From Lachnotalea glycerini (GTDB taxonomy: Bacteria; Bacillota; Clostridia; Lachnospirales; Lachnospiraceae): a stretch of 64,000 nt of DNA. The position numbers and the translations under genes are program-made. Below are positions 29,712 to 53,797 of this stretch, in pieces; position 1 is the first letter of the stretch; each line of letters starts with the position of its first letter. Where the stretch lies: contig NZ_QICS01000002.1 in assembly GCF_003201285.1 (NCBI RefSeq), positions 434,001 through 498,000 on the forward strand. The letters run 5' to 3'. Under the pieces are notes generated by a model. The model was not told the DNA's origin, ran no database searches, and was given only the letters and a program-made list of their open reading frames with translations.

Positions 29712-29969
29712 ATCATATTAAAAACCGTTGAGAAAGAATAGTAGATTTTAAATGACATTACAGAGAGTCGCAGGTGGTGGAATGCGATATGAAATTTTCA
29801 ATTGAATGGGCTTTCGAGGGCAACCTGAAATAATAGTAGGCGTTGACGGGAGGATGCACCTGTTACAAAGGCATAGCATATGTTAGTATGTTAGTAAAGA
29901 GGACATTAGTCAATTTGAGTGGTACCGCGGATATATCCGTCTCAAGCAATAGCTTGAGGCGGTTTTTTT
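29712..29969 (+). promoter_or_regulatory. T-box leader (specifier TGG) upstream of the Trp ABC operon
   Basis: This leader shows the T-box sequence TGGTACCGCGG (29920-29930), followed by a terminator CCGTCTCAAGC/GCTTGAGGCGG (29937-29962) with a T run. The stem I features AGAGAG and GGTGG are near 29762-29780. The specifier is read as TGG at 29807-29809 in the context GAA-TGG-G, meaning uncharged tRNA-Trp would promote readthrough. This fits the transporter genes that follow. Confidence 0.88.
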
Positions 29970-30024: not shown

Positions 30025-30064
30025 AATGCGCACGAATGTAAGCGGAAGATGTCACTATGTGTCT
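30025..30064 (+). repeat. Dispersed 40-bp repeat, copy 1
   Basis: The element begins AATGCGCACGAATGTAAGCG and contains GTCACT. A second copy with about 90 percent identity by eye lies at 60896-60934. Both follow an inverted repeat. It is not part of a recognised gene. Confidence 0.6.
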
Positions 30065-30148
30065 AAAATGCGTACTTTGTGGATTAGATATGGTTTTAAA
30101 TCACTTTGGTGTGCGAGTGTAATAGAAAAGAGGAAAAAGGAGAATATT

Positions 30149-31192
30149 ATGAAAAAGTTAAACAAAGCAGCTGCCTTGCTTTTAACAGCAGTCTTGTCAT
30201 TTACAATGGTAACTGGATGTAGCAGTAATAAGGAAACAAAGAATTCAGAGACTTCAGTTGAAAATACTGATAATACCTCTTACACAATTGGAATTGGACA
30301 ATTTGCGCAGCATGCATCGTTAGATAATTGTCGTGAGGGATTTATTGAAGGGCTCAAAGAAGCCGGAATTGAAGAAGGTAAGAATCTTACCATTCTTTCT
30401 GATAATGCAAACGCAGATACAGGGACGGCAGCACAGATTGCAGATAATTATGTGTCAAATAAGGTTGATTTGATCTGTGCAATTGCAACGCCTATGGCAC
30501 AAAGTGCATATGGGGCAGCTAAGGATACCGATATCCCGGTAGTTTATACAGCCATTACAGATCCGGTTGCAGCAGAGCTTGCAAATGCAGATAAAACATC
30601 AACAGGTAATATTACAGGAACTAGCGATAAATTACCAATTAAACAACAGTTGGATATGATAAGAAAAATGCTTCCACAAGCAAAAACAATTGGAATTATG
30701 TACACAACAAGTGAAATCAATTCAGTGGCAGCGGTTGAGGAATACAAAAAATTAGCTGGTGAATACGGTTTTGAAATTGTAGAAAGTGCAATCGCAACCG
30801 GAGCAGATATTCCGTTAGCAGCACAAGATTTGGCAGGTAAAGTGGATTGTATTAATAATTTAACAGATAATACAGTAGTAAGTGCTTTACCAGTTATTTT
30901 AGCAGAAGCAAACAGCAATAATGTTCCCGTTTTCGGAAGTGAAATTGAACAGGTTAAAATAGGATGTCTGGCTACGGTAGGACTGGACTATTTTACACTT
31001 GGGAAGCAAACAGGGGCTATGGCGGCTAAAATTTTAAAGGGAGAAGCAAAGGCTTCGGAGATGCCGTTTGAAGTAATTGAGGAAGGAAGCTTTTATGCAA
31101 ATACTGCAGTTGCAGAAGCACTGAAAATTGAAATACCAAAAGAATTATCAGATAAAGCGGTTGAGACATTTACAACTATAGAAGAAAACTAA
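30149..31192 (+). CDS. trpX: Tryptophan ABC transporter substrate-binding lipoprotein (TrpX type)
   Basis: A 347-residue lipoprotein of the ABC_sub_bind (DUF534) family. The signal peptide ends at the lipobox MVTGC (Cys near residue 22). The mature part begins YTIGIGQFAQHASLDNCREG and contains AAQIADNYVSNKVDLICAIATP. The Trp T-box leader upstream and the permease and ATPase genes downstream match the TrpXYZ importer of streptococci. ATG 30149 was chosen for its AAAAAGGAG site; the longer frame to 30026 reads through the dispersed repeat. Confidence 0.88.
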   Translation: MKKLNKAAALLLTAVLSFTMVTGCSSNKETKNSETSVENTDNTSYTIGIGQFAQHASLDNCREGFIEGLKEAGIEEGKNLTILSDNANADTGTAAQIADNYVSNKVDLICAIATPMAQSAYGAAKDTDIPVVYTAITDPVAAELANADKTSTGNITGTSDKLPIKQQLDMIRKMLPQAKTIGIMYTTSEINSVAAVEEYKKLAGEYGFEIVESAIATGADIPLAAQDLAGKVDCINNLTDNTVVSALPVILAEANSNNVPVFGSEIEQVKIGCLATVGLDYFTLGKQTGAMAAKILKGEAKASEMPFEVIEEGSFYANTAVAEALKIEIPKELSDKAVETFTTIEEN

Positions 31193-31220
31193 GCGATGGA
31201 GCTTTAAAGGAGCGTGTAGA

Positions 31221-32099
31221 ATGCTAAATAGTATTTTGATACAGGGATTCATATTTGCCATTATGTCATTGGGAGTTTACATCACTTATAAAATTCTGGA
31301 TTTTCCTGATTTATCGGTTGATGGAACCTTTCCACTGGGAGCGGCAATTACGGCAATTCTGATAGTAAAGGGTGTGAATCCATATATTACTTTACTTGTG
31401 TCTTTCTTAGGCGGAACCATTGCAGGCATGATTACAGGCATCATACATGTAAAATTAAAGGTAAGAGATTTGTTGGCAGGAATCATTATGATGACTGCAT
31501 TATACTCTATTAATTTGAGAATAGCTGGAAAAGCAAATGTAGCCTTTACAACTAAGGACACTATTTTTACAAAATCAATATTCAGAGAACTTTTACGAGG
31601 AGTGAGTGGAAAAACAATTACTCTAATTGTTCTGGTCATGATTGTTCTGCTTCTAAAAATCGTAATAGACTTTTATTTAAAAACACGGGCAGGATATTTA
31701 TTAAGAGCAGTGGGAGATAATAAAACCCTAGTAACCACATTGGGTAAGGACATCGGACTTGTGAAAATTATTGGTTTAAGCCTTGCAAACGGTCTTGCTG
31801 CTTTGGCAGGTTGCATTTATGCACAGGAAGAAAGATATTTTGATATCAGTATGGGAACCGGAATGGTAGTAATTGGCTTGGCAAGTGTAATTATTGGTAT
31901 CAATGTGTTTGAGCGCTTTGACAAAATAAAGCCGACTACCGCAGTGATTGCTGGTACGATTCTATATAAGGCATGTTGGGCATTGGCAATCAAAAAGGGA
32001 CTCAGTGCGAACGATTTAAAGCTTGTAACTGCTGTATTGTTCCTGATTATTTTGGTATTGACACAGGAGAAGAAAAGGAAGGTGAATAAAAATGCTTGA
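31221..32099 (+). CDS. trpY: Tryptophan ABC transporter permease (TrpY type)
   Basis: A 292-residue permease of the branched-chain amino acid/CUT2-like class with about eight membrane segments (ILIQGFIFAIMSLGVYITYKI at the start, and SVDGTFPLGAAITA). It follows trpX by 28 bp with a GGAG site and overlaps the ATPase gene by 8 bp. It forms the membrane channel of the tryptophan importer. The substrate is inferred from the T-box and neighbours. Confidence 0.87.
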   Translation: MLNSILIQGFIFAIMSLGVYITYKILDFPDLSVDGTFPLGAAITAILIVKGVNPYITLLVSFLGGTIAGMITGIIHVKLKVRDLLAGIIMMTALYSINLRIAGKANVAFTTKDTIFTKSIFRELLRGVSGKTITLIVLVMIVLLLKIVIDFYLKTRAGYLLRAVGDNKTLVTTLGKDIGLVKIIGLSLANGLAALAGCIYAQEERYFDISMGTGMVVIGLASVIIGINVFERFDKIKPTTAVIAGTILYKACWALAIKKGLSANDLKLVTAVLFLIILVLTQEKKRKVNKNA

Positions 32100-32865
32100 A
32101 TTGAAAAGCATAAGTAAATATTATAATCCCGGAACGGTGAACGAAACCTGCCTTTTTGATCAGTTTAGTATGAAAATTGGGGATGAGGAGTTTGTATCTG
32201 TAGTAGGAAGTAATGGATCAGGAAAGACCTCTATGCTGAATATTATTTGCGGCAGCATACCGATTGAACAAGGACAGATTATTCTGGATGATAAAGATAT
32301 TTCTAATTTAAAGGAATATAAAAGACAGCAGATTATAGGAAGAGTATATCAAAATCCAGCAATGGGTACCTGCCCTAATATGACCATACTTGAGAATATG
32401 TCACTGGCAGATAATAAGGGGAAACCCTTTAATCTGAAGCTTGGAACGAATAAAAAGCGTATTGATTTTTATAGAGAAAGTTTAAGAGAATTAAATTTAG
32501 GCTTAGAGGATAAGCTGGAGGTTAAGGTAGGGTCTTTGTCCGGAGGGCAGCGTCAGGCAATGGCACTTTTAATGTCTACACTTACTTCGATTCGGTTTTT
32601 AATTCTGGATGAACATACTGCGGCACTAGACCCAAAAACTGCTGAAATTATTATGGAGCTTACAGATAAAATAGTTAAAGAAAAAAGACTCACAACAATT
32701 ATGGTAACGCATAATTTAAGATATGCAGCAGAGTACGGAAACCGTTTAATCATGATGCACCAGGGTGAAGCGATTGTTGATAAGGCAGGGAAAGATAAGA
32801 CAGAGATTAAGATGGAAAGCATCTTAGAAAAATTCAACCAGATTAGTATTGAATGTGGGAATTAA
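32092..32865 (+). CDS. trpZ: Tryptophan ABC transporter ATPase (TrpZ type)
   Basis: A 257-residue ATPase with Walker A GSNGSGKTS (about residues 39-47), Q-loop, signature SLSGGQRQAMALLM and Walker B FLILDEHTAALDP. The start ATG lies inside the end of trpY (8-bp overlap), which indicates translational coupling. Completes the trpX-trpY-trpZ set. No terminator was visible between it and the second T-box. Confidence 0.88.
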   Translation: MLELKSISKYYNPGTVNETCLFDQFSMKIGDEEFVSVVGSNGSGKTSMLNIICGSIPIEQGQIILDDKDISNLKEYKRQQIIGRVYQNPAMGTCPNMTILENMSLADNKGKPFNLKLGTNKKRIDFYRESLRELNLGLEDKLEVKVGSLSGGQRQAMALLMSTLTSIRFLILDEHTAALDPKTAEIIMELTDKIVKEKRLTTIMVTHNLRYAAEYGNRLIMMHQGEAIVDKAGKDKTEIKMESILEKFNQISIECGN

Positions 32866-33392: not shown

Positions 33393-33405
33393 ATTCATGA
33401 CAAGT

Positions 33406-33423
33406 GAAACGATTTATCGTTTC
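33406..33423. repeat. Inverted repeat at the trpE ribosome binding region
   Basis: GAAACGAT-TT-ATCGTTTC, an 8-bp perfect stem, lies between the T-box terminator and the trpE binding site (AGGAGG at 33433). It could affect trpE translation. Confidence 0.45.
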
Positions 33424-33445
33424 AACTGGGTTAGGAGGAGACAAA

Positions 33446-34855
33446 ATGAAACGAATCTTTAGAGCATATAAGAAAACAGTGAGCATTGTTAATGAAACGG
33501 CGGTTGGCATATTTGAGGGACTGGCCGAAAGGAACATAGGGTTTTTATTAGAGAGCTATGATAAAAATAATGGTAGGTACACCTTTTTTGGAGTAGAACC
33601 AGAAGAGCTTATTACCTCACGAGGAAATAATTTAGTAATTAAAAGCAAGGACGGCAGTGAGAGGATATTAAAAGGAAATCCAGTTGAGCAGCTTAAGAGA
33701 TACTACTCCGAATTTGAAATAAGAACAGAAGGATGTGAATTAGCTTTTACAGGTGGTTTGGTAGGAAGTTTGGGTTATGACTTTATAAGATATACAGAGG
33801 AATTACCAGATGAGAATGAAGATGAAATAGGAATTGAAACAATACAGTTTATGCTGGCTACAACATTTATTGTCATAGACCATGTTGCAGAAACTCTCAC
33901 GGCTGTGGTATTGGAAAAAGATAGTGAAGAAGGAAAGCGAAAGGGGAAAAAAAAGGCCGAGAATTTGATTCAGACAGCCGTTTCTAATATGGTAATCAAA
34001 GAAAACAATTTTGTTCATGATGGAATTATTATTCATAAATCCGATTCCTTAAAGCAGTACAGCAATAAAGTAGAAAAAATTAAGCATTATATTAGAGAAG
34101 GACATATTTTTCAAACGGTGCTTTCACAGAGATGGACGATAGAGACAAGACAAACAGGTTTTGAACTATATAAGGAATTGAGATTATTGAATCCATCGCC
34201 ATATTTATATTATTTTAAGTTTGAGGATTTTGAAATGATTGGAAGTTCACCAGAGATGCTGGTTAAGCAGGTAGATAATAAGGTTTATACCTGTCCGATA
34301 GCAGGAAGCAGAAGAAGGGGGAAGGATGAAAAGGAAGATGAGCAATTAAAACAAGAGCTTTTAAAGGATGAGAAGGAAAGAGCCGAGCACGTTATGCTGG
34401 TAGACCTTGCAAGAAACGATATGGGCAGAATCGCAGAATTTGGAAGTGTCAAGGTTACACAGTTTATGGAAGTTCAAAATTATTCTCATGTTATGCACAT
34501 TGTATCACTTGTGGAGGGAAGAAAGAAGGGAGAGTATCATCCAGTTGATTTAATATCTTCTTTTTTACCGGCAGGAACCTTAAGTGGTGCACCAAAAATA
34601 AGAGCGATGGAAATTATTGATGAATTAGAAGAAGTAAAAAGAGGCTTATATGGTGGAGCAACGGGCTATTTTGATTTTAACGGCAATATGGATTTTTGCA
34701 TTACCATTCGAACCATGATTAAAAAGAATAACAAAGTATATTTGCAGGCGGGAGCAGGAATTGTTGCTGATTCTGTTCCAGAGAGTGAATATGAGGAATG
34801 CTGCAATAAAGTAATGGCACTTGCTAAAACGTTGGTTGAGGAGGAGAAGCTATGA
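33446..34855 (+). CDS. trpE: Anthranilate synthase component I
   Basis: A 469-residue chorismate-binding enzyme that makes anthranilate from chorismate and ammonia supplied by TrpG. The C-terminal domain shows [49 protein letters not shown] and [12 protein letters not shown]. The N-terminal domain carries the tryptophan feedback site, seen as [16 protein letters not shown] near residue 35. ATG 33446 was taken for TTAGGAGGAG upstream; the frame extends to GTG 33404. It overlaps trpG by 4 bp. Confidence 0.95.
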
Positions 34856-35421
34856 TACTTTTAATTGATAACTATGATTCATTTACTTTCAACTTGTATC
34901 AATATTTAGGAATTTTTGCAGAGGACATCAGGGTGGTAAGAAATGATAAAATAACCATTGAGGAAATAAAAGCTTTAAATCCTGATAAAATATTAATTTC
35001 TCCCGGTCCAAAGAGTCCGAAAGAGGCGGGGATTTGTTTGGAAGTAATTCGATACTTTTATGATAAAAAGCCAATTCTTGGAATATGCCTTGGACATCAA
35101 TGCATTGGAGAAGCACTAGGAGGAACGGTAGGTTATGCAAAGGAGCTATTTCATGGAAAACAATCAGTGATTGAGCATGATAAAACAAGCATATTTACTG
35201 GAATCGATACACCGATTCAGGTTGCGAGATACCATTCTCTTGCAGTACAATCAGAGGATTTGCCGGACTGTTTAAAAGTATTGGCAACAACTAAGGATGG
35301 AGAAATTATGGCAATGAAGCATAGAAAATTTCCTGTAATAGGACTTCAGTTTCATCCGGAATCCATCTATACCGAACATGGGAAGCGGTTAATTGAGAAT
35401 TTTGTAAACGGCATTATATAA
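34852..35421 (+). CDS. trpG: Anthranilate synthase component II (glutamine amidotransferase)
   Basis: A 189-residue class I glutamine amidotransferase. The catalytic Cys is in GICLGHQCIGE (about residues 77-87), and the His-Glu pair is in QFHPESIYTEHG near the C-terminus. It supplies ammonia to TrpE. There is no fused anthranilate phosphoribosyltransferase domain. The ATGA overlap with trpE suggests translational coupling, and trpC follows after 10 bp. Confidence 0.95.
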   Translation: MILLIDNYDSFTFNLYQYLGIFAEDIRVVRNDKITIEEIKALNPDKILISPGPKSPKEAGICLEVIRYFYDKKPILGICLGHQCIGEALGGTVGYAKELFHGKQSVIEHDKTSIFTGIDTPIQVARYHSLAVQSEDLPDCLKVLATTKDGEIMAMKHRKFPVIGLQFHPESIYTEHGKRLIENFVNGII

Positions 35422-35431
35422 GGAGGTAATT

Positions 35432-36211
35432 ATGATTTTAGATGATATTGTTGCATATAAAAAAAAGCGTCTAGCAAAGAGCAAACGAAAAATCAGTGAG
35501 GATGAAATGCGTTTACTTGCGGCATCTAGTGATAGAAACTCAATTAGCTTTTACGATGCATTGGCAAAACCCGGACTTTCTATCATAGGAGAATTTAAAA
35601 AAGCGTCGCCGAGTATGGGAATTATTAACAGTAAAATAGAGCTTATAGACAGAATTGATCAATACAATGAGGCGGTAGATGCCATTTCCTGCTTAACAGA
35701 GGAGGATCATTTTAATGGAAATATCGAATATTTAAAAAAAATCCGTGGAATGTCATATTTACCAATTCTGCGAAAGGACTTTATTATTGATGAATATCAA
35801 ATATATGAAGCCAAAATAATCGGTGCCGATGCGATTCTTTTAATTGCGGCAATTCTGAATGATGAAACAATGAAGCAATTCTATGATTTAGCCTATCGGT
35901 TAGGTATGGATGTGTTAGTTGAGGTGCACGATGAGGAAGAAATGAAACGTGCTCTTAATTTAAACTCCAGAATAATTGGAGTGAATAATAGAAATTTAAA
36001 GGATTTTACAATTAGCCTAGAGACGACAAAACGTTTATCTGAAATGCTTCATTCCGAAATTGTTTTTGTGTCGGAAAGTGGTGTGACGACAGAAGAGGAC
36101 ATTGAGTTTTTAAAAAGCTGTAAGGTAAATGCCCTGTTAATCGGTAGAGCCTTTATGGAATCTGAAAATCCAAAGGAGTTGGCGAATAAGTGGAAAGATC
36201 TATTTCATTAA
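35432..36211 (+). CDS. trpC: Indole-3-glycerol phosphate synthase
   Basis: A 259-residue TIM-barrel enzyme. Visible hallmarks are [13 protein letters not shown] (about residues 50-62), [28 protein letters not shown] and FVSESGV. It makes indole-3-glycerol phosphate from CdRP. It directly follows trpG, where trpD would normally sit. The trpF part of the next gene starts 12 bp after the stop. Confidence 0.95.
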
Positions 36212-36222
36212 GAGGAGGTTAT

Positions 36223-38037
36223 ATGGGTACAAAGATAAAGATTTGCGGAATAACAAGACCAAAGGAAGTTACTATGTTGATAGAAAATCAGGTGGATTTC
36301 GCAGGAATGGTCATGTTTTATCCTAAAAGCAAAAGAAATAATTCTATTGAAAATGCAAAGATTTTATTAAAAAAGCTATCGATATCTTCGATACAAACGG
36401 TTGCTGTCACAGTCAGTCCGACAATAGAACAGGTGATGGAAATACAGGCTTTGGGTTTTGATTATATTCAGATACACAATATACTTTCAAAGGAAGTCCT
36501 AAAAGAAATAAGACTTCCAATATTAAAAGCGTTTCATATAAGCGATTTAGGAGATTATGAAAATTATCAAAGCTGTTCTAAGGTATTTGGCTATGTATTT
36601 GACAGTGCGATTCCGGGTAGCGGCGAAACCTTTGATTGGTCAATACTTGATCATATACCAAGAGACAGAAAGCTTTTTATCCTTGCAGGAGGTCTGAATA
36701 AAGACAACGTAGAAAAGGCAGTCAGGCAATTAAGACCGGATATCATAGATGTCTGTACCGGAGTGGAAGGAGAGAATGGAAAGGATGCCTTAAAGATAAA
36801 AGAACTTGTAAATAAAGTAAATCAATGGAATGAGAAGGAGAGGAAGACAGAGATGGAGAAATATTATTATGGCAGTTTTGGTGGAAGATATGTACCAGAA
36901 TCATTAATCAATACGTTGGATGAACTGGAGGCTGCCTTTGAGGAGGCAATGAACGATACTAAATTTAAGGAAGAGCTTGATTACTATTTGAAAGAATATG
37001 TGGGCAGAGAGACACCTCTATATTTGGCAGAAAGAATTTCAGCAAAATATGGAACAAAAATTTATTTAAAAAGAGAGGATTTAAATCATACAGGTGCACA
37101 TAAAATCAATAATGTTATTGGCCAAATCTTGTTGGCAAAACGTATGGGAAAGAAAAAAGTGATTGCTGAAACAGGTGCTGGACAGCATGGTGTTGCAACG
37201 GCAACAGGAGCTGCATTATTTAATATGGAATGTACGGTTTATATGGGAGAAGAGGATATTAAGCGTCAGGCACTGAATGTATTTCGTATGGAAATGCTTG
37301 GGGCAAAGGTGGTTAGTGTAACATCAGGAAGCAATACGCTAAAGGATGCGACCAATGAAGCGATACGCACATGGGCTAAAACAGCAGAAGACACTTTTTA
37401 TGTCATAGGCTCGGCAGTAGGACCGTATCCATATCCAAAGATAGTGAAAGAATTCCAAAGCATTATAAGTAAAGAAGCAAAGGCGCAGTTTTTACAAAAG
37501 GAGGGCAGATTGCCTGATACGGTCATTGCCTGTGTAGGAGGGGGTTCTAACTCGATTGGAATGTTTGCCAATTTTATTGAGGATAAAGAAGTAGAGTTAA
37601 TTGGAGTAGAGGCAGCCGGACTGGGAGTTGAAACCGGAAAGCATGCCAGTGCAATGGCACTTGGAAAGCCAGGAACCTTGCATGGAATGCGTTCCTATTT
37701 ATTACAGGATGAGAATGGAAACGTAGAGCTTGCACATTCCATATCAGCAGGACTTGATTATCCGGGAGTAGGACCAGAGCATGCGTATTTGCGAGATACC
37801 AAAAGAGTGGAATATGTATCTATAAAGGATAATGAGGCGATGGATGCACTAAAGGAGCTATGTGAACTAGAGGGTATTATACCGGCAATAGAGAGTGCAC
37901 ACGCTCTTGCCTATGCCTTTAAAAAAGCATCCGTTATGAATAAAGAACAGGCAATGATTGTATGTTTATCAGGACGTGGAGATAAGGATGTAAATACTGT
38001 TTCAGATTATTTCAGTGGCAAAGGCTACTTAAATTAG
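36223..38037 (+). CDS. trpFB: Phosphoribosylanthranilate isomerase - tryptophan synthase beta fusion (TrpFB)
   Basis: One 604-residue reading frame. Residues 1 to about 205 are PRA isomerase (IKICGITRP with catalytic Cys8, FILAGGLN-type block, IDVCTGVEG). Residues 211 to the end are tryptophan synthase beta ([13 protein letters not shown], the PLP lysine in [36 protein letters not shown]). The linker is short and charged ([12 protein letters not shown]). An ATG at 36853 is preceded by AAGGAGAGG, so TrpB could also be made separately. ATG 36223 was chosen for AGAGGAGG upstream; the frame extends to 36190. Confidence 0.93.
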
Positions 38038-38049
38038 GAGGGGATAAAA

Positions 38050-38835
38050 ATGAATCGAATTGAAAAAAGATTACAAGAGTTGAAAATAGAAAATAAAAAG
38101 GCGCTGATTACTTATATGACAGCAGGACTTCCGTCTTTACAAGGAACAAAAGACATCATTTTGGCACAGGATGAGGCCGGATGTGACGTGATTGAGCTCG
38201 GGGTACCGTTTTCCGATCCGGTTGCCGACGGACCGGTGATTCAGGACGCTTCTTTTAAGGCAATTCAATTAGGTGTCAATTTAAAAAAAGTTTTTACAAT
38301 TGTAGAAAATGTTAGAAAAGAATCTCAGATACCGATTGTTTTAATGCTTTATTACAATACTATTTTGTATTATGGAGTAAAAGCCTTTGTAGAACGGTGT
38401 ATCGGGGTTGGAGTGGACGGTTTGATTATACCTGATTTGCCTTTTGAAGAGCAGGGAGAAATCAATGAATTTTTAGGCAAAGAGGAGGCTCCGATTCTGA
38501 TTCAATTGGTGTCACCTGTTTCAAAAAACCGAATACCTAAAATTTTAGAGCATGCACGAGGATTTGTTTACTGTGTTTCCTCTATGGGAGTAACCGGTCA
38601 GGATGCTTCTTTTCATAAGAATATTATAGATTATTTAAAGCAGGTAAAAAATGAATCTAGAATCCCTGTCATGATGGGATTTGGAATTCGTACTGCCAAA
38701 GATGTAGAACCAATGAAGCACATAATAGACGGAGTCATTGTAGGATCATATTTTATTCAATTAATGGAAGAAAATGATTATCAAATTGATAAAATCAAAG
38801 AGTATTGCAAGAGCTTTAAAAAGCAGTTGAATTAG
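38050..38835 (+). CDS. trpA: Tryptophan synthase alpha chain
   Basis: A 261-residue TIM-barrel enzyme that cleaves indole glycerol phosphate. The catalytic residues lie in IELGVPFSDPVADGPVIQ (Glu and Asp region, about residues 50-67) and DGLIIPDLPFEEQ; phosphate binding is in GFGIRTAKDV. It is the last gene of the operon, 12 bp after trpFB, with AGGAGGGG upstream and a terminator downstream. Confidence 0.95.
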   Translation: MNRIEKRLQELKIENKKALITYMTAGLPSLQGTKDIILAQDEAGCDVIELGVPFSDPVADGPVIQDASFKAIQLGVNLKKVFTIVENVRKESQIPIVLMLYYNTILYYGVKAFVERCIGVGVDGLIIPDLPFEEQGEINEFLGKEEAPILIQLVSPVSKNRIPKILEHARGFVYCVSSMGVTGQDASFHKNIIDYLKQVKNESRIPVMMGFGIRTAKDVEPMKHIIDGVIVGSYFIQLMEENDYQIDKIKEYCKSFKKQLN

Positions 38836-43770: not shown

Positions 43771-44574
43771 ATGGCTAATGAATATGAAATCAAAAAACAA
43801 ATTTGTGATATTGGTAAAAGAATATATGATAGAAATATGGTGGCGGCAAATGACGGTAACATTTCTGTAAAATTAAATGATCATGAATTTCTTTGCACAC
43901 CAACCGGTGTATCAAAAGGATTTATGACTCCGGAATATATCTGCAAAGTAGATGAAAATGGAAATTGTCTTCAGGCTAATGGAAATTTCAGACCATCATC
44001 AGAAATTAAAATGCATATGAGAGTTTACAAATGCAGACCAGATGTAGGAGCAGTAGTACATGCTCATCCAACCTTTGCAACATCATTTGCAATTGCAGGA
44101 ATTCCATTAACTCAGCCAATTATGCCTGAGGCAGTTATCGCACTAGGATGTGTTCCAATTGCTGAGTACGGTACACCATCTACGATGGAGATTCCGGATA
44201 ATGTAGAAAAATACTTACCTTATTACGATGCAGTATTATTAGAAAGCCACGGAGCATTAACTTGGAGTGTTGACCTTTTAGCTGCTTATCATAAAATGGA
44301 ATCTGTTGAATTTTATGCTGAATTATTATACAAATCAAGACAGCTTGGCGGACCAAAGGAATTTGACAAAGAGCAAATTCAAAAATTATATGAAATCAGA
44401 AGACAAATGGGCTTACCAGGAAAGCATCCGGCAGATATGTGTGCAGAATTAGGTGGACAATGCGGTGGTGGCTGTCATTCATGTACAAGCACAAAAACAT
44501 CAGAAGTATCCTCAACAGATATTGAGAAAATTGTTGCAGAAGTAACAAAGAAGATTTTAACTCAAATGAAATAA
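43771..44574 (+). CDS. fucA: Class II aldolase, L-fuculose/L-rhamnulose-1-phosphate type, BMC-targeted
   Basis: A 267-residue zinc aldolase. It splits fuculose- or rhamnulose-1-phosphate into DHAP and L-lactaldehyde. Zinc ligands His97, His99 (VVHAHP) and His160 (ESHG), and Glu78 (SSEIKMH), are visible. Beyond the usual FucA length of about 215, there is a Cys/Gly-rich linker (GGQCGGGCHSCTS) and a final amphipathic helix (STDIEKIVAEVTKKILTQMK) that looks like an encapsulation peptide. It is the first gene of the BMC operon, with AAGGAGG upstream. Confidence 0.9.
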   Translation: MANEYEIKKQICDIGKRIYDRNMVAANDGNISVKLNDHEFLCTPTGVSKGFMTPEYICKVDENGNCLQANGNFRPSSEIKMHMRVYKCRPDVGAVVHAHPTFATSFAIAGIPLTQPIMPEAVIALGCVPIAEYGTPSTMEIPDNVEKYLPYYDAVLLESHGALTWSVDLLAAYHKMESVEFYAELLYKSRQLGGPKEFDKEQIQKLYEIRRQMGLPGKHPADMCAELGGQCGGGCHSCTSTKTSEVSSTDIEKIVAEVTKKILTQMK

Positions 44575-44583
44575 TAGAATCTG

Positions 44584-44617
44584 GGCTTTAACTGTAGTTT
44601 TAGTACAGTCAAAGCTG
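44584..44617 (+). repeat. Intercistronic stem-loop between aldolase and aldehyde dehydrogenase
   Basis: GGCTTTAACTGTA pairs with TACAGTCAAAGCT (few mismatches) and no T run follows, so it is more likely an RNA-processing or stability element than a terminator. Confidence 0.5.
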
Positions 44618-44632
44618 TAGGAGGTGCATAAA

Positions 44633-46057
44633 GTGTCAATCAGCGAACAAGAAATACAAGATATGGTTCAAAATGTTTTGCAAAATATGAGTAAAGGTGA
44701 GAACCCTTCTATTCATAAGACCGAAACAAAGCCAAAGAAATTAATGGGAATTTTTGAAAACATAGAAGATGCAATTGCTGCTGCAAAAGCAGCGCAAAAA
44801 GAAATACAGCCAATGCCGCTGGAATTCAGAGAAAAAATTATTGCCAATATACGTAAGAAAACACTTGAAAATGCAAAGTTATTTGCAGAACTTGGAGTAA
44901 AAGAAACCGGTATGGGCAATATCGGACATAAGATACTAAAGCATCAATTAGTTGCAGAAAAAACACCTGGAACTGAAGATCTTACCACAATAGCATGGTC
45001 TGGAGACAGAGGCTTAACACTCATTGAGCAGGGACCATATGGTGTTATTGGAGCGGTGTGCCCATCTACCAATCCGACCGAGACGATAATTTGTAATTCA
45101 ATCGGAATGTTGGCGGCAGGAAACTCCGTTGTATTCGCTCCACATCCATCAGCCAAGAATGTTTCCAATCTTGCAATTGATATGGTAAACAGGGCAAGCA
45201 CTGAAGTGGGAGGACCACAAAATCTGGTGGTCGCAGTAGAAGAGCCTGCCATGGAAGTCAGTAAAATTATTTTTGGACATAAGGACATCTCACTATTGGT
45301 AGCAACAGGAGGTCCAGGTGTGGTTACATCTGTTCTTTCCTCGGGAAAAAGAGCAATGGGAGCAGGAGCAGGAAATCCACCGGTACTTGTGGATGAAACG
45401 GCAAATATACCAAAAGCAGCCGAGGACATTGTAAACGGAGCAACCTTTGACAATAATTTACCATGTATCGCAGAAAAAGAAGTAGTAGCAGTAAAATCAA
45501 TAGCAGATGAATTAATGTATTACATGGAACAAGCAGGCTGCTATCATGCAAATGAAGAAGAAGTTGCTAATTTAATTTCAGCGATATTCATTGAGAAAAA
45601 TGGCAAAAAGATGTTAAACAGACAGTGCGTGGGACGTAGCGCAAAGATGCTTTTAAATAAAATAGGAGTAACAGTTGGTGATGAAATTCGCTGTATCATT
45701 TTTAAGGGTGAAAAAACACATCCATTGATTGCAGAAGAGCTTATGATGCCAATACTTGGAATTGTAGAAGTAAGGGATATAGACGAAGGAATTGAGGTTA
45801 GTGTGGAACTAGAACAGGGAAACAGACACTCTGCCCATATGCACTCAACAAATGTAAATAATCTGACCAAATTTGGTAAAGCTATCGATACGGCAATCTT
45901 TGTTAAAAACGGACCTTCTTATGCTGCACTTGGATTTGGTGGAGAAGGTTATGCAACCTTTACAATAGCAAGCCGAACCGGAGAAGGTTTGACATCGGCT
46001 AAAAATTTTACGAAAAGCAGAAGATGTGTAATGTGTGATGCATTAAGTATTCGATAA
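44633..46057 (+). CDS. pduP: CoA-acylating aldehyde dehydrogenase (PduP type), BMC-targeted
   Basis: A 474-residue NAD+-dependent enzyme oxidising propionaldehyde or lactaldehyde to the acyl-CoA. The catalytic Cys is in FDNNLPCIAEKEVV (about residue 276). The N-terminal amphipathic helix EQEIQDMVQNVLQNM (about residues 4-18) is an encapsulation peptide, joined by a linker to the ALDH domain. GTG 44633 was chosen for AGGAGG at 44619-44624; an in-frame GTG at 44624 lies inside that site. It follows the aldolase directly. Confidence 0.92.
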   Translation: MSISEQEIQDMVQNVLQNMSKGENPSIHKTETKPKKLMGIFENIEDAIAAAKAAQKEIQPMPLEFREKIIANIRKKTLENAKLFAELGVKETGMGNIGHKILKHQLVAEKTPGTEDLTTIAWSGDRGLTLIEQGPYGVIGAVCPSTNPTETIICNSIGMLAAGNSVVFAPHPSAKNVSNLAIDMVNRASTEVGGPQNLVVAVEEPAMEVSKIIFGHKDISLLVATGGPGVVTSVLSSGKRAMGAGAGNPPVLVDETANIPKAAEDIVNGATFDNNLPCIAEKEVVAVKSIADELMYYMEQAGCYHANEEEVANLISAIFIEKNGKKMLNRQCVGRSAKMLLNKIGVTVGDEIRCIIFKGEKTHPLIAEELMMPILGIVEVRDIDEGIEVSVELEQGNRHSAHMHSTNVNNLTKFGKAIDTAIFVKNGPSYAALGFGGEGYATFTIASRTGEGLTSAKNFTKSRRCVMCDALSIR

Positions 46058-46071
46058 GGAGAGTGATATAA

Positions 46072-47265
46072 GTGGAAATGAATATAGAAGAAATCGTAAA
46101 ACAAGTACTTGAAGAAATGCAAGGTACTGGCATCGCAGCAGAACCAAAGGCAGCCGGTAGTATTCCAAAGACTTCAAAAGCAGCGATGCTTACTGCATTA
46201 GAGCATTATGAGATAAAAGAATTTCCAATTCCAGAGCTTGGAGATGACGATATTTTAGTAAAAGTGGAAGGCTGTGGTGTTTGCGGTACAGATGCACATG
46301 AATTTAAAAGAGATCCATTTGGTTTGATTCCTTTGGTATTAGGACATGAAGGAACTGGAGAAATTGTGAAAATGGGTAAAAACGTGAAAAAGGACAGTGC
46401 CGGAAAATCATTGGCAATTGGGGACAAGGTTGTTACTTGTATGATTTTTAAGGATAACCCAGACATTACAATGTTTGATTTAAACAAACAAAATGTAGGC
46501 GGAGCCGATGTATATGGTCTACTGCCAGATGATGATATTCACTTGAACGGATGGTTTGCAGATTACTTGGTGGTAAGAGGAGGCTCTACCATTTTCAATG
46601 TAAGTGATTTGGATTTGGATTCCAGAATCTTAATTGAGCCATGTGCCGTTTTAATTCATGCAGTGGAAAGAGCAAAAACAACAGGAATCTTAAGATTTAA
46701 CAGCAGGGTAGTTGTTCAGGGCTGCGGTCCGATTGGTCTTATTTGTATTGCAATCTTAAAGACTATGGGTGTACACAATATCGTAGCAGTTGACGGAGAA
46801 CAAAAGAGACTGGATTTTGCAAAGGAACTTGGTGCATCTGCAACGGTTAATTTCAAAGACTATAAAGGAATTGAAGCATTAACTGATGGAGTTGAGAATG
46901 CATTCGGTGGATATCTGGCAGATTTTGCTTTCCAATGTACAGGATCACCAGTGGCGCATTCCAATATATATAAATTTATCAGAAATGGTGGCGGTCTTTG
47001 TGAATTAGGTTTCTTTATCAATGGTGGAGATGCGACCATTAATCCTCACTTTGACATCTGCTCAAAGGAAATAACAACAGTAGGTTCTTGGGTTTATACC
47101 TTAAGAGATTATGCTACAACCTTTGACTTCCTAAAAAGCGCAAAATCGATAGGACTTCCAATTGGAAAACTGATTACCCATAAGTTTCCTTTAAATCAGA
47201 TTAATGAAGCACATATTACCAACTTAAAAATGGAAGGCTTGAAAATTGCTATCGTAAATGAATAG
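46072..47265 (+). CDS. Zinc-type alcohol dehydrogenase, BMC-targeted
   Basis: A 397-residue medium-chain dehydrogenase. It has the zinc motif GCGVCGTDAHEFKR and GHEGTGE, and the NAD motif GCGPIGLICIAILK (about residues 220-233). An N-terminal helix MNIEEIVKQVLEEMQ (about 3-17) looks like an encapsulation peptide, followed by a flexible linker. It should reduce aldehydes (lactaldehyde or propionaldehyde) to alcohols and recycle NADH. This is not the iron-type FucO or PduQ seen in other BMCs. The start is GTG 46072; ATG 46078 is possible. Confidence 0.85.
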   Translation: MEMNIEEIVKQVLEEMQGTGIAAEPKAAGSIPKTSKAAMLTALEHYEIKEFPIPELGDDDILVKVEGCGVCGTDAHEFKRDPFGLIPLVLGHEGTGEIVKMGKNVKKDSAGKSLAIGDKVVTCMIFKDNPDITMFDLNKQNVGGADVYGLLPDDDIHLNGWFADYLVVRGGSTIFNVSDLDLDSRILIEPCAVLIHAVERAKTTGILRFNSRVVVQGCGPIGLICIAILKTMGVHNIVAVDGEQKRLDFAKELGASATVNFKDYKGIEALTDGVENAFGGYLADFAFQCTGSPVAHSNIYKFIRNGGGLCELGFFINGGDATINPHFDICSKEITTVGSWVYTLRDYATTFDFLKSAKSIGLPIGKLITHKFPLNQINEAHITNLKMEGLKIAIVNE

Positions 47266-47276
47266 GAGAAAAGGCT

Positions 47277-47582
47277 ATGAATGAAGCAGTTGGTTTAATA
47301 GAGGTATTTGGTTGTGTTGCCGCCTTTGTGGCGGTAGATGCGGCTTGTAAGGCAGGCAATGTGCGGATAGAGGCGTTGGATAAAAATAAGCCGGCGAATG
47401 CAGATTCATTACCAGTACCACTGGTAATGTGTGTTAAGATGAGAGGAAGCGTTTCGGATGTAAGGGCGGCAATGGATGCGGCCGAAGAAGCGGCAAACAG
47501 TGTAACTGGTGTAGTATCAAAGCATATGATAGCGGCACCTGACCAGAATACGGAAAAAATGCTAAATATTAGTGCATTATAA
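47277..47582 (+). CDS. BMC-H shell protein (single BMC domain, variant)
   Basis: A 101-residue shell protein with one BMC domain (AVGLIEVFGCVAAFVAVDAAC at the start, about 10 residues longer than PduA due to a loop NKPANADSLPVP). The hexamer forms shell facets. Its pore-loop region (residues about 37-45) differs from the GSG of the PduA-like paralogues, so permeability may differ. It lies 12 bp after the alcohol dehydrogenase gene. Confidence 0.88.
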   Translation: MNEAVGLIEVFGCVAAFVAVDAACKAGNVRIEALDKNKPANADSLPVPLVMCVKMRGSVSDVRAAMDAAEEAANSVTGVVSKHMIAAPDQNTEKMLNISAL

Positions 47583-47656
47583 AACAAGTGCGTTTTGATT
47601 AAAAATATGTTAGAATAAAAATAGTTAGTAGGTACAACCTTAAGGAGGATTAAGTT

Positions 47657-47935
47657 ATGACACAGGAAGCATTAGGTATGATAGAAACCAGAGGATTAGT
47701 AGCAGCAATTGAAGCATCTGATGCAATGGTAAAAGCAGCAGATGTTCAGTTAATCGGTACAGAAAAAATTGGTTCAGGACTTGTCAGCGTAATGGTACGT
47801 GGTGACGTAGGTGCAGTGAAAGCAGCTACAGAGGTTGGAGCACAAGCGGCTGCAAGACTTGGAGAATTAGTGGCAGTTCATGTAATCCCAAGACCACATG
47901 TTGACGTAGAAAAAATATTACCTGTAATTAAATAG
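47657..47935 (+). CDS. pduA: BMC-H shell protein, PduA/PduJ-like
   Basis: A 92-residue canonical facet protein ([20 protein letters not shown], then [20 protein letters not shown]). The GSG pore motif at about residues 37-41 forms a small polar pore typical for substrate entry. Its sequence is nearly the same as the BMC domain of the 48272 gene (residues 51-139), suggesting a duplication. AAGGAGG precedes the ATG. Probably the most abundant shell component. Confidence 0.93.
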
Positions 47936-47944
47936 GGTTCGTTT

Positions 47945-48238
47945 ATGAAATCGTTAGGGTTAATTGAATTACCTAATTTCACAGATGCAATTCAGGCATT
48001 GGATGTAATGCTTAAGACAGCAGATGTCAAATTTCTTACTTGGGAAAAGAAATTAGGAGGCAGACTGGTAACTGTTATTGTTCAAGGCGATGTATCTGCG
48101 GTAACTGAGGCAGTGGAAAGCGCAAAAAAAAGTGCAGTAGGAAATATTGTTGCGTCAGCAATCATTGCAAATCCGCATGATGAAACGAAGAAGCTTGTGG
48201 ATGCAAGTGCCAAAAAGTATAAGAATGCCCTTGAATAA
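47945..48238 (+). CDS. BMC-H shell protein, PduK-like or divergent
   Basis: A 97-residue BMC-domain protein (SLGLIELPNFTDAIQALDVML, then WEKKLGGRLVTVIVQGDVSAV). The pore loop LGGR differs from GSG. It has a lysine-rich C-terminal tail (ASAKKYKNALE). Minor facet component, perhaps interacting with core enzymes. The ATG has only a weak upstream site (GGGTT), so translation may be coupled to the previous gene, 9 bp away. Confidence 0.85.
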   Translation: MKSLGLIELPNFTDAIQALDVMLKTADVKFLTWEKKLGGRLVTVIVQGDVSAVTEAVESAKKSAVGNIVASAIIANPHDETKKLVDASAKKYKNALE

Positions 48239-48271
48239 CAAATACAGGTAATTCAGAATGAGGTATTAGAT

Positions 48272-48691
48272 ATGACCGAAGAATTAAAGAACAAAACAAA
48301 TTATATAGCAATGCAAAAAGAAATAGATAAAAATAAAAAAAAGGTATCAAGTAAAAGTGTTTCCAAAACACAGCCAGTAAAGGAACAAGTAATCATTAAG
48401 GAGGAAAAAAGGATGGAACTTCAAGCATTAGGAATGATAGAAACAAGAGGTTTGGTTGCTTCAATTGAGGCAGCAGATGCTATGTTAAAAGCAGCAAATG
48501 TAGTTTTAGTGGGAACAGAGAAGATAGGCTCAGGACTTGTAAGTGTAATGGTACGAGGCGATGTTGGAGCAGTAAAAGCAGCAGTAGAAGCCGGTTCAGC
48601 AACAGCAGCAAAATTAGGCGAGGTAATTGCAGTTCATGTTATTCCAAGACCACATAGTGACGTAGAAAAAATTCTTCCACAGGTAAAATAA
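48272..48691 (+). CDS. BMC-H shell protein with possible Lys-rich N-terminal extension
   Basis: A PduA-like BMC domain (residues 48-139) preceded in frame by a 47-residue lysine/serine-rich tail. Two starts are possible. ATG 48272 has GAGGT 7 bases upstream; ATG 48413 has AAGGAGG upstream and gives a standard 92-residue PduA. Both forms may be made, which would give a minor tailed variant. The tail may anchor cargo or neighbours. It is very similar to the 47657 protein. Confidence 0.85.
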
Positions 48692-48704
48692 GAATAATGT
48701 AAAA

Positions 48705-48745
48705 TTCTGACGTGCCTGATTTATATATGTTGGGCACAGTCAGAA
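48705..48745 (+). repeat. Intercistronic stem-loop ahead of pduL
   Basis: TTCTGAC (48705-48711) pairs with GTCAGAA (48739-48745), and TGCC with GGCA inside. No T run follows, so it resembles the hairpin after the aldolase gene. Confidence 0.5.
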
Positions 48746-48796
48746 GCTTTATGACTACCATTATGTGCGTACAGACCCGCACCGTTGGAGGTACAC

Positions 48797-49438
48797 ATGC
48801 AGGAACAATTAGTTCAAGAAATAACCAGGCTGGTTATTGCACAGCTTGACAATACAAAGGTTATAGAATCAGAATATATGGTTCCTATTGGTATATCAGC
48901 ACGTCACGTGCATTTGACCAGGGAACATATTGATATTTTATTTGGTAAAGATTATCAGTTAAATAAAAAAAAGGTATTAATGGGAGGCCAATATGCGGCA
49001 CAGGAATGTGTCACCTTGGTCGGAACAAAGCTTAGAGCAATAGAGAATGTTAGAATATTAGGACCCGAAAGAAAAGTTTCACAGGTTGAAGTGTCCCAAA
49101 CAGATGCCATTCGTTTGGGAATCAAAGCACCAATCAGGGAATCGGGCAATATAAAAGGCTCAGCACCAATCGCAATGGTTGGTCCGTTGGGGGCTGTTTA
49201 TTTGGATGAAGGATGTATTGTTGCAAAACGTCACATTCATATGTCACCAGAAGATGCGAAACAGTTTGGTGTGGTTGACAATCAGATTGTTAATGTTAAA
49301 GTTGGCAATGGCAGAGGGGGCATTTTTGAAGGTGTTCAAATTAGAGTAGATCAATCATTTACATTGGAGATGCATATTGACACAGATGAAGCAAATGGTT
49401 TAGGTGTAGGTAAAGAGGGGAGAATCCTGATTAAGTAA
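48797..49438 (+). CDS. pduL: Phosphotransacylase PduL, BMC-targeted
   Basis: A 213-residue enzyme that swaps CoA for phosphate on the acyl group. The conserved His-x-His motifs are in ISARHVHLT (His37, His39) and KRHIHMSPEDA (about residues 141-151), which bind zinc. The N-terminal amphipathic helix (QEQLVQEITRLVIAQL) is an encapsulation peptide. ATG 48797 was chosen because GGAGGT lies at 48787-48792, inside the longer frame from 48785. It returns CoA inside the shell and yields acyl-phosphate for ATP. Confidence 0.93.
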   Translation: MQEQLVQEITRLVIAQLDNTKVIESEYMVPIGISARHVHLTREHIDILFGKDYQLNKKKVLMGGQYAAQECVTLVGTKLRAIENVRILGPERKVSQVEVSQTDAIRLGIKAPIRESGNIKGSAPIAMVGPLGAVYLDEGCIVAKRHIHMSPEDAKQFGVVDNQIVNVKVGNGRGGIFEGVQIRVDQSFTLEMHIDTDEANGLGVGKEGRILIK

Positions 49439-49452
49439 TTTAGGAGGTATTT

Positions 49453-49728
49453 ATGATTATAGGGAAGGTAGTTGGTACAGTAATTTGTACCAGAAAAAAT
49501 AGTAATCTGGTAGGAAGTAAATTCTTAATAGTTGATCCAATGGAGAAAATGAACGCAAATAGCAGAATCGTAGCAGTGGATAATGTAGGAGCCGGTATAC
49601 ATGATATTGTGTTGGTTGCTATGGGAAGTTCTGCTAGAATAGGTTGTGAGGATTTAAATGCACCTGTTGATGCGTGTGTAGTCGGCATCGTGGATGATCC
49701 GCAAAAAATTGTAATAGTAGAAGAATAA
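49453..49728 (+). CDS. BMC vertex protein, EutN/CcmL family (BMC-P)
   Basis: A 91-residue pentamer-forming protein that caps shell vertices. It begins MIIGKVVGTVICTRKNSNLV and contains KFLIVDPM and AVDNVGAGIHDIVLVAMGSSAR, the family core. AGGAGG lies upstream. A closed shell needs a vertex protein, so its presence together with facet genes supports an intact compartment. Confidence 0.92.
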   Translation: MIIGKVVGTVICTRKNSNLVGSKFLIVDPMEKMNANSRIVAVDNVGAGIHDIVLVAMGSSARIGCEDLNAPVDACVVGIVDDPQKIVIVEE

Positions 49729-49786
49729 GTAACGAATTGGTCAGCCGACCATAAAGCTACGAAAGGATAAGGTTTAGGTGAGCTGA

Positions 49787-51115
49787 ATGGATATGTTAGA
49801 AATGAAGAAGGCTTTATTCGAGGGTGGCATTGTAGGAGCTGGTGGAGCAGGATTTCCTACTTATGCAAAGCTTTCGGATCAGGCAGAGACGATTATATTA
49901 AACTGTGCTGAATGCGAACCTTTAATTAAGGTTGACAGACAGTTGATGATTGACTACGTCGATGAAGTACTTTTTGGCATGCAGATGCTGGTAGATACAT
50001 TAGGAGCCAAAGAAGGAATTATTGCCATTAAGAAGTCGTATGTCACTTCCATACAGGCAGTTAATAGCCGTATTGCTAATTATAAAAGTTTAAAGCTTCA
50101 TATTCTGCCTGATATTTACCCGGCAGGTGATGAAGTTATTTTGATATATGAGACAACGAAAAAGGTAGTGCCGCAAGGTAAGATTCCTATTTTAGTTGGC
50201 TGTGTGGTAGTGAACGTTGAAACAGTCCTTAATATCTATAGAAAAATTACAAAGGATGAAAATGTTACAACAAAATTTATTACGGTTGCAGGATTGGTTA
50301 AAAATCCAATTACGGTAGAAGTACCAGTTGGTATTATGGTGAAGGATTTAATTGACCTGGCAGGTGGTTTTACAACAGAAGATTATGTTATGATTATGGG
50401 CGGACCAATGACGGGTAAAATATGTTCTGCACCTGACATAGTGACTAAAACGACAAAGGCTATTTTAGTATTACCACCTACATGTCCACCAATCACAATG
50501 AGAAAGAGTACTACCAGAAACAACTTACGAGCTGCAATGTCAGCCTGTTCACAGTGTTCCATGTGTACAAGCCTATGTCCAAGAAATTTACTCGGTTCAG
50601 CAATTAAACCACATGAATTTATGCGGGCAATCGCTAATGGAATTACATATAATGTAGAACCTTTTATTAATTCTTTCTTTTGCGTATCCTGTGGACTTTG
50701 TGAAATGTATTCTTGTCATCAAGGGTTATCGCCTCGAAGACTACTGGATGAATATAAGAACGGACTCAGGGCAAAGGGAGTAAAGCCACCGGATAAACCC
50801 AATAAACCAACTAATGAACTAAGAGAGGAACGTAAGGTTCCTGAACATAGACTCATAAATCGCTTGGGATTAGCAAAATTTGATCTTGCAGCACCTATGG
50901 CTAAGTGTGAAATGAATATCAAGGAAGTAAAATTATTACTTCGTCAGTGTATAGGAGCACCATGCAGTGCGAGTGTTAAAGTAGGAGATAAAGTGTCTCA
51001 GGGTCAGGTGGTAGGAAAACCGCCCGAAGGAGCTTTGGGTGTTATATTACACGCAAGCTTGACTGGTACTGTAACAGCAGTGAATGACAGTTTTATCACT
51101 ATAAGTAAACAATAG
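49787..51115 (+). CDS. pduS: PduS/RnfC-like iron-sulfur flavoprotein
   Basis: A 442-residue RnfC-family electron carrier. The N-terminal glycine-rich GGAGFPTYAKL (about residues 20-30) is the NADH/flavin-binding motif. Two [4Fe-4S] clusters are coordinated by CSQCSMCTSLCP (about residues 252-263) and CVSCGLCEMYSC (about 297-308). A C-terminal barrel-sandwich domain follows. In Pdu compartments it supports cobalamin reduction; here, without a B12 enzyme in the window, it may move electrons across the shell to reoxidise NADH. The start ATG 49787 has only a weak upstream site. Confidence 0.9.
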   Translation: MDMLEMKKALFEGGIVGAGGAGFPTYAKLSDQAETIILNCAECEPLIKVDRQLMIDYVDEVLFGMQMLVDTLGAKEGIIAIKKSYVTSIQAVNSRIANYKSLKLHILPDIYPAGDEVILIYETTKKVVPQGKIPILVGCVVVNVETVLNIYRKITKDENVTTKFITVAGLVKNPITVEVPVGIMVKDLIDLAGGFTTEDYVMIMGGPMTGKICSAPDIVTKTTKAILVLPPTCPPITMRKSTTRNNLRAAMSACSQCSMCTSLCPRNLLGSAIKPHEFMRAIANGITYNVEPFINSFFCVSCGLCEMYSCHQGLSPRRLLDEYKNGLRAKGVKPPDKPNKPTNELREERKVPEHRLINRLGLAKFDLAAPMAKCEMNIKEVKLLLRQCIGAPCSASVKVGDKVSQGQVVGKPPEGALGVILHASLTGTVTAVNDSFITISKQ

Positions 51116-51179
51116 TAAACTGAGGTAACATTCAGTACCCACTGATAAAATATTTCAGTCATAATGGAGATGAGTAAAG

Positions 51180-51728
51180 ATGAATAAGGCAATTGGAATG
51201 GTAGAATATAAAACGGTTTCCACAGGTATTAAGGCAGCTGACCGGATTGTGAAAACAGCAGAGGTTGAGTTAATTCAGGCTCAGACAGTATGTCCGGGTA
51301 AATTTATAATATTATTCAGCGGTGATTTAAGTGCAGTTCGAGTGGCAGTCGATGCGGTACAAAAAGAGTATCCGGAGAGTTTAATCGACAGCTTTGTGCT
51401 TGGTAATCCTCATGAGTCTATTTTCAAGGCACTTACCTGTACCTCGGAGATAGAAGAGGTATCTGCACTTGGAGTGATTGAAACCTTTACAGGTGCATCG
51501 GCTATAGTCGCTGCGGATCATGCAGCTAAGACAGCACAGGTTGATATATTTGAGATTCGTGTATGCAGAGGTATGTGTGGAAAATCTTATGTACTTCTGA
51601 CAGGGAGCGTTGCATCGGTAACAGAAGCAGTAGAGTCTTCTGTTGCTTTAATCAGAGAAGAAGGAATGATTCTTGATTTTGCAATTATTCCAAGTCCATC
51701 AAAAGATTTTGTAAAAACTTTAATATAG
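51180..51728 (+). CDS. pduT: BMC-T shell protein, PduT-like (tandem BMC domains)
   Basis: A 182-residue trimer-forming protein with two BMC domains (about residues 1-90 and 93-182). Cys38 in QTVCPGK matches the position where PduT binds a [4Fe-4S] cluster in its central pore. With PduS next door it could form an electron conduit through the shell. It is the last gene of the BMC operon, followed by a strong terminator. Confidence 0.9.
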   Translation: MNKAIGMVEYKTVSTGIKAADRIVKTAEVELIQAQTVCPGKFIILFSGDLSAVRVAVDAVQKEYPESLIDSFVLGNPHESIFKALTCTSEIEEVSALGVIETFTGASAIVAADHAAKTAQVDIFEIRVCRGMCGKSYVLLTGSVASVTEAVESSVALIREEGMILDFAIIPSPSKDFVKTLI

Positions 51729-51767
51729 AAAAAATTATCAAAATATGGTATAATATAGTTTGCGAAT

Positions 51768-51805
51768 AAAAAGCGATAAGAATCAACATTCTTTATCGCC
51801 TTTTT
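51768..51805 (+). terminator. Terminator of the BMC operon
   Basis: AAAAAGCGATAAGAAT pairs with ATTCTTTATCGCCTTTTT, with near-perfect complementarity and a T run. Confidence 0.9.
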
Positions 51806-51854
51806 GTTATAATTGAAAATGATGTATTTTGTTAACTGAAAGGGAGTGTAAAAT

Positions 51855-52757: not shown

Positions 52758-52768
52758 TAGAAAATATT

Positions 52769-52816
52769 GCAGTATGATAAAACACTTAAAGTATCAATTT
52801 ATCATGCTGCTTTTAT
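52769..52816 (+). terminator. Terminator after the hydrolase gene
   Basis: GCAGTATGATAAA pairs with TTTATCATGCTGC (one wobble) and is followed by TTTTATTT. Confidence 0.85.
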
Positions 52817-52866
52817 TTAGCTTATCAATTATTATAATTAGTATGTAGTTTTAATTTTATATATTG

Positions 52867-52883
52867 TTGTTTTGTATTGTTTT
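52867..52883. promoter_or_regulatory. Candidate DeoR operator (TTGTTTT direct repeat), deoR side
   Basis: TTGTTTT-GTA-TTGTTTT repeats the arrangement found at 43534-43550 before the BMC operon. An ACAACAAACAAACA tract (52908-52921) overlaps the promoter, resembling the tract ahead of the aldolase gene. Confidence 0.45.
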
Positions 52884-52906
52884 TGATAAAAAATATACAA
52901 AAATAC

Positions 52907-52935
52907 TACAACAAACAAACATATTGTGGTATAAT
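52907..52935 (+). promoter_or_regulatory. Promoter of deoR-rhaB
   Basis: TATAAT at 52930-52935 has an extended -10 (TGG), with a weak -35 (TACAAC, 52907-52912) 17 bp upstream that overlaps the candidate operator tract. Confidence 0.55.
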
Positions 52936-53017
52936 ACTAAAAAGTAATGTAATGATCGTATTAGTAAGTAGCAAATCGGACTGTGAATATCCGTTTTGCT
53001 GAATTGGAGGTGAATGA

Positions 53018-53779: not shown

Positions 53780-53797
53780 TTTAAAAGGAGAAGATGT

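Follow-up and report, generated by a model that had tools for sequence, protein, structure and literature searches.

According to the relevant passage of a 2024 paper, fusions of TrpF with TrpB are rare but present in bacteria and archaea, and TrpGD and trpAB fusions are also known (PMC11237513); the passage concerns the same fused pair as the gene described here and makes no mention of an internal start or of a junction analysis. The trpC-trpF fusion of E. coli (passages of PMC2395257 and PMC4755613) is, like TrpGD and trpAB, a fusion of pathway genes with partners that differ from those considered below. The 709-residue alpha-beta chain of PDB entry 7a20 has its beta part at the C-terminal end (residues 301-695), as does the present fusion, and again the partner differs. 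The same domain order is found in the family model NF010376 (PRK13803, bifunctional phosphoribosylanthranilate isomerase/tryptophan synthase subunit beta). The fused gene covers that whole model (residues 3-598 against model positions 5-596 of 600) at 730.3 bits, below the cut-off of 819, which is passed in none of 392 genomes of the order, 391 of the class, 398 of the phylum, 29 of the genus designated g153, or a set of two; the gene is a TrpF-TrpB fusion and is not a member of the NF010376 equivalog. In the aspartokinase II gene (lysC) of Bacillus subtilis, an in-frame internal start yields the C-terminal part by itself, as a free subunit of an alpha2-beta2 enzyme. The fusion considered here is likewise one gene with an internal start, for an unrelated enzyme, and its free product is a predicted one. 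No start within a TrpF-TrpB fusion was found in the listed titles and opening lines of abstracts by literature queries that never combined the two terms.

The fusion architecture is thus already known; what is added here is a series of states of the internal start, beginning with a gene in a 64,000-nucleotide stretch of Lachnotalea glycerini DNA (the window). The reading that we consider likely is that this gene is a real fusion, unshared by its congeners and of indel origin, with a 604-residue TrpF-TrpB protein and a predicted 394-residue TrpB as its products, the free form being optional.

TrpF and TrpB in a single frame

The fused gene (Table 1) is one open frame of 604 codons, from its first ATG to a TAG at 38035-38037, with no internal stop. 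Its N-terminal part belongs to TrpF by its match to PF00697 (PRAI; 118.9 bits against a cut-off of 22.7). The Pfam PALP domain occupies residues 261-584 (152.7 bits, cut-off 35) and the TrpB model TIGR00263 residues 215-596, the latter at 631.6 bits against a cut-off of 392.45, which establishes membership of TrpB. Read from the translation, the TrpB part contains HTGAHKINN, which carries the PLP lysine, and the TrpB motifs AETGAGQHG and GGGSN. KICGITR and FDSAIPG, read from the translation of the TrpF part, are candidate sites of the catalytic Cys and Asp of TrpF, which are C7 and D126 in the T. maritima enzyme. In an AlphaFold2 model built on a 52-row alignment (mean pLDDT 92.3, pTM 0.69), both domains are folded well, the last TrpF helix extends to residue 213, and confidence drops to 75 and 59 within residues 201-220. 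None of the 52 PDB sequences matched is matched over both domains. The fusion is the sole PRAI match in its genome by profile search and the sole TrpB match (TIGR00263 at E 1e-10); the search for a second trpF or trpB in the genome found none, its one additional hit being to a different PLP enzyme and weak (30%). TrpF and TrpB joined in one frame by a short linker, as the earlier note had described them, are confirmed, and so is the preserved TrpB start.

Table 1. Features of the fused gene and of the surrounding trp operon (positions in the window).
Feature	Positions	Strand	Basis or remark
trpE	33446..34855	+	TIGR00564, 539.5 bits; start ATG 33446 proposed, with a Shine-Dalgarno sequence there
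trpG	34852..35421	+	TIGR00566, 226.1 bits
trpC	35432..36211	+	NF001377, 307.9 bits
trpF-trpB fusion gene	36223..38037	+	Single frame; PRAI and PALP/TIGR00263
TrpF (PRA isomerase) domain	36223..36822	+	Conserved part to about residue 197-200; PF00697 at residues 6-197
Linker codons	36823..36852	+	Length and frame vary among three congeners; low AlphaFold2 confidence at residues 201-220
TGA in frame +2	36831..36833	+	Directly 5' of the Shine-Dalgarno sequence
Internal Shine-Dalgarno sequence AAGGAGAGG	36835..36843	+	-11.9 kcal/mol
TrpB part with its own ATG	36853..38037	+	394 residues if made alone; aligned with congener trpB starts
trpA	38050..38835	+	TIGR00262, 250.5 bits

The operon reads trpE, trpG, trpC, trpF-trpB, trpA. 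A trpD gene is absent from it (33404-38835) and from the trp operons of both congeners, and sits elsewhere in all three genomes (loci L009 and L208; G000:C16, about 36266-37237). Upstream of trpE lies an ABC transporter (30026-32865), probably a tryptophan importer, which is preceded by a T-box leader (29719-29947, 116.7 bits). Further downstream, a block common to the window and both congeners (about 43771-55216) looks like a putative microcompartment locus, with a presumed class II aldolase-like gene at 43771 and a pair of short genes that resemble each other near 47639 and 48269.

The start of TrpB inside the fused frame

The internal Shine-Dalgarno (SD) sequence stands nine bases 5' of the TrpB ATG, which is codon 211 of the fused frame. 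Its strength, taken as the duplex energy with a chosen 16S tail (the anti-SD), comes close to the -12.2 to -13.2 kcal/mol of the five other trp starts, and is attained by 12 of the first starts of the 47 window ORFs of at least 150 residues. The internal ATGs of these same 47 ORFs served as controls: none of the 404 other in-frame ATGs is as strong (nine reach -9.3 kcal/mol), nor are more than 3 of 718 out-of-frame ATGs (21 reach -9.3), and random draws of codons for the TrpF part match -11.9 kcal/mol in 0.9% of cases. The site is also the most open of the six trp starts, with an opening cost of 2.0 kcal/mol versus 4.4-8.7 at the other five, a median of 9.7 (minimum 3.9) for 42 further in-frame ATGs within the trp ORFs, and a median of 4.7 at 137 separate trpB starts of relatives. 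Since no comparable in-frame ATG exists among the 404 and no trp start is more open, the combination of SD and ATG is not due to chance, which bears out the earlier note on the presence of a ribosome-binding site ahead of TrpB. ATG 36853 looks like a working start by prediction, TrpB is probably still made alone, as that note had supposed, and the formation of both products in the window organism is the most likely outcome on present sequence data.

Recurrence of the fusion and the fate of the buried start

Similar genes were sought in four overlapping genome sets, drawn from the family (397 genomes), the order (392), the class (391) and the phylum (398). Counts of fused genomes are lower bounds, taken among the matches listed, which are incomplete, or at a strict threshold. 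Twenty regions were picked from the family-level matches for closer inspection; 196 loci were scored, of which 177 were kept; the other 19 were set aside because TrpB was incomplete or missing or because TrpF did not immediately precede it. At least 18 distinct genomes of the first survey have TrpF and TrpB in one frame, nine of the fused species belonging to the single genus g153; with all of g153 added, the number of intact fusions is at least 35. Outside g153 there are nine: the window, L039 (Candidatus Colinaster scatohippi), L041 (a Lachnospira MAG of low coverage), G045, G392, G613, G651, G526 and G1328. In the last of these (L180 1477-4080, minus strand) TrpC, TrpF and TrpB form one frame of 867 residues; its sole congener compared, G1491, has a 408-residue TrpB frame. 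On a quick TrpB tree of 154 rows (four short TrpB rows omitted, duplicates merged) the distribution of the fused state needs 10 changes, while 200 shuffles gave at least 15. The fusion is the sole PRAI match in 16 of the 16 fused genomes tested (two MAG records aside), and 15 of the 16 have no second TrpB above the family cut-off, the exception being G526; G651 and G613 have distant TrpB relatives below it.

All nine fused genes outside g153 keep the ATG with an SD of -9.3 kcal/mol or stronger, and five of the nine (G526, G392, G613, G1328 and G045) stand far apart on the tree, at 0.42 to 1.13 changes per column from their closest neighbour. Not all of the sites are open: the opening cost in the eight other than the window's is 3.2 to 10.2 kcal/mol, and across all 12 fusions scored besides the window's it is 2.5 to 10.2 kcal/mol.

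In g153 the start has fared differently. The join is found in 27 of the 29 genomes (G1480 and G1482 have separate genes) and the joined frame is intact in 26. In G1471 (L225 1549-3195, plus strand, on one contig) the TrpF frame is broken near its N-terminus. In G1486 (L226 823-3273, minus strand), one of the 26, one frame of 816 residues runs through TrpF, TrpB and TrpA with the end of TrpB missing, the product of either a deletion or an assembly error. At the position of the TrpB start, the 27 joined rows have ATG in 3, GTG in 11 and neither in 13. At E 1e-100 the fusion model finds a single match in every one of the 29 genomes. Since the genus's two lone TrpBs score 1e-191 and 1e-195 on that model, a lone g153 TrpB would pass the threshold, and no second TrpB of that type is seen. 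A search with TIGR00263 in five of the 13 start-less genomes also found no second TrpB. The next gene is trpA in all 27 joined rows, 105 bases on in G1471 and fused in G1486.

The absence of a TrpB start codon in 13 of 27 rows, together with the lack of a second TrpB match and the adjacency of trpA, makes free TrpB seem optional, and the fused form of TrpB appears to suffice. The suggestion that free TrpB might be needed for the usual alpha2-beta2 complex is correspondingly weakened. The weakening is itself tempered by an in-frame ATG 20 codons 5' of the TrpB motif in 12 of the 13 start-less rows, which could give an extended TrpB; in the remaining row, G1472 (L222), neither ATG nor GTG nor TTG occurs within 24 codons. 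That upstream ATG is mostly the weaker site (SD -4.0 to -9.2, opening cost 4.1 to 13.1 kcal/mol), and is located inside the last TrpF helix. Of the 14 rows that have a start, 12 carry it as well, with an SD of -1.5 to -8.6 and, in a single case, a distance of 23 codons.

The notion that the internal site is under selection, with two products made so that TrpB exceeds TrpF or mixed tetramers with TrpA form, goes beyond the reading given at the outset, and we consider it less likely than not. Conservation of ATG and SD in 9 of 9 fusions outside g153, in part across the long distances just noted, speaks for it. So does the company that the start keeps within g153: all 14 rows that have a start codon carry a strong SD, against 3 of the 13 that lack one. 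In 10 intact rows of one clade, from 10 species, the valine at the start position is always GTG, a codon that accounts for 68 of the 434 valine codons in these species; three of 33 invariant valine columns keep one codon, and the start position is the single one in which that codon is GTG. A row of the other clade, L217, has valine GTA at the start position and a weak SD. Against selection stand the absence of the start codon from nearly half of the joined rows, the 7 changes that the start codon makes on the g153 tree, and the confinement of the GTG rows to one clade. Well-supported branches of the tree provide 4 independent pairs, in which the SD agrees with the start codon in 2.8 on average and is never opposite; the test on these pairs gives a median p of 0.25, the pairs being too few to reach 0.05. 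The association of start and SD in g153 is therefore a hint, not significant; the pattern is compatible with joint retention of start codon and SD in some of the g153 species and is not proof of it. A wider proposal is that selection maintains the engulfed ribosome-binding site in the majority of TrpF-TrpB fusions, where it would set the TrpB:TrpF ratio and give mixed tetramers, and that start codon (GTG or ATG) and SD have been retained together in half of the g153 species and have degenerated together in most of the rest. This too is doubtful; if true, g153 would amount to a natural experiment in gene fusion.

Elongating ribosomes can mask internal initiation sites. A site masked in this way might be a dead relic, with ribosomes reading through the fused frame and no appreciable amount of TrpB produced by itself, and the absence of the site from 13 of 27 g153 rows would agree with that; we think this unlikely for the window gene, because the SD, the ATG and the openness of its internal site match those of the operon's other starts.

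Origin of the join

The genus is represented by two further genomes, G001 and G002 (Konateibacter massiliensis and Candidatus Galacturonibacter soehngenii). In both, trpF and trpB are separate genes, one or two bases apart: the trpF stop is TGA in G001, ending one base before the trpB ATG, and TAA in G002, ending two bases before it. Aligned with the fusion, the congener TrpFs reach 36825 (G001) or 36837 (G002). AGGAA, seven bases and ATG are in place in all three genomes with the spacing unchanged. The two congener trpF frames are the two frames other than that of TrpB, and neither is used by the window; from either layout the join therefore required bases to be gained or lost in a number not divisible by three. 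The stop codons of these relatives, which the earlier note had proposed to survey, thus do not support its account of a lost trpF stop; simple stop loss as the sole route is rejected, and the fusion probably arose by a length change (indel). A closer, unsampled ancestor may have had its stop in the TrpB frame and lost it later. The trpF gene is in the trpB frame in 2 of 44 separate pairs of one locus set, many of which share one ancestral overlap, and in 69 of 137 pairs of a wider set, which is biased in that many of its loci were chosen as full-length profile matches.

On the indel reading, a trpF tail that varies in length and frame among congeners would have drifted by indel into the trpB frame and past its stop. 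The ribosome-binding site of trpB would have been left in place, still starting some free TrpB, so that the fused gene would give a 604-residue TrpF-TrpB together with a 394-residue TrpB. Either form could serve as the beta subunit with TrpA; that the free one may be optional follows from the related fusions that have no TrpB start codon.

An assembly or sequencing error is very improbable as the source of the join: the TGA in frame +2 just before the SD means that a one-base indel would mimic a fusion from the standard layout of trpF, stop, SD and trpB, both congeners have separate genes, and the species is represented by one genome, so that the fusion rests on one assembly, but 21 other window genes over about 25 kb align to congeners without frame breaks, which makes a sequencing indel unlikely, and the same kind of fusion recurs across the TrpB tree and is intact in 26 genomes of g153. 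(Of 60 congener ORFs, antisense frames among them, the comparison matched 52 with at least 55% identity; two of the 52 also match a neighbouring paralogue.)

With the gene taken as a real fusion, its interest lies in the junction. It is easy to suppose that once two genes have fused, the second is no longer expressed on its own. In the present case one junction can be compared in three states, with the genes separate (the congeners), fused with the start kept (the window), and fused with the start altered or gone (g153). Set side by side, these states allow a test of whether a complex must retain one of its subunits in free form; in the case of tryptophan synthase, they suggest that it need not.
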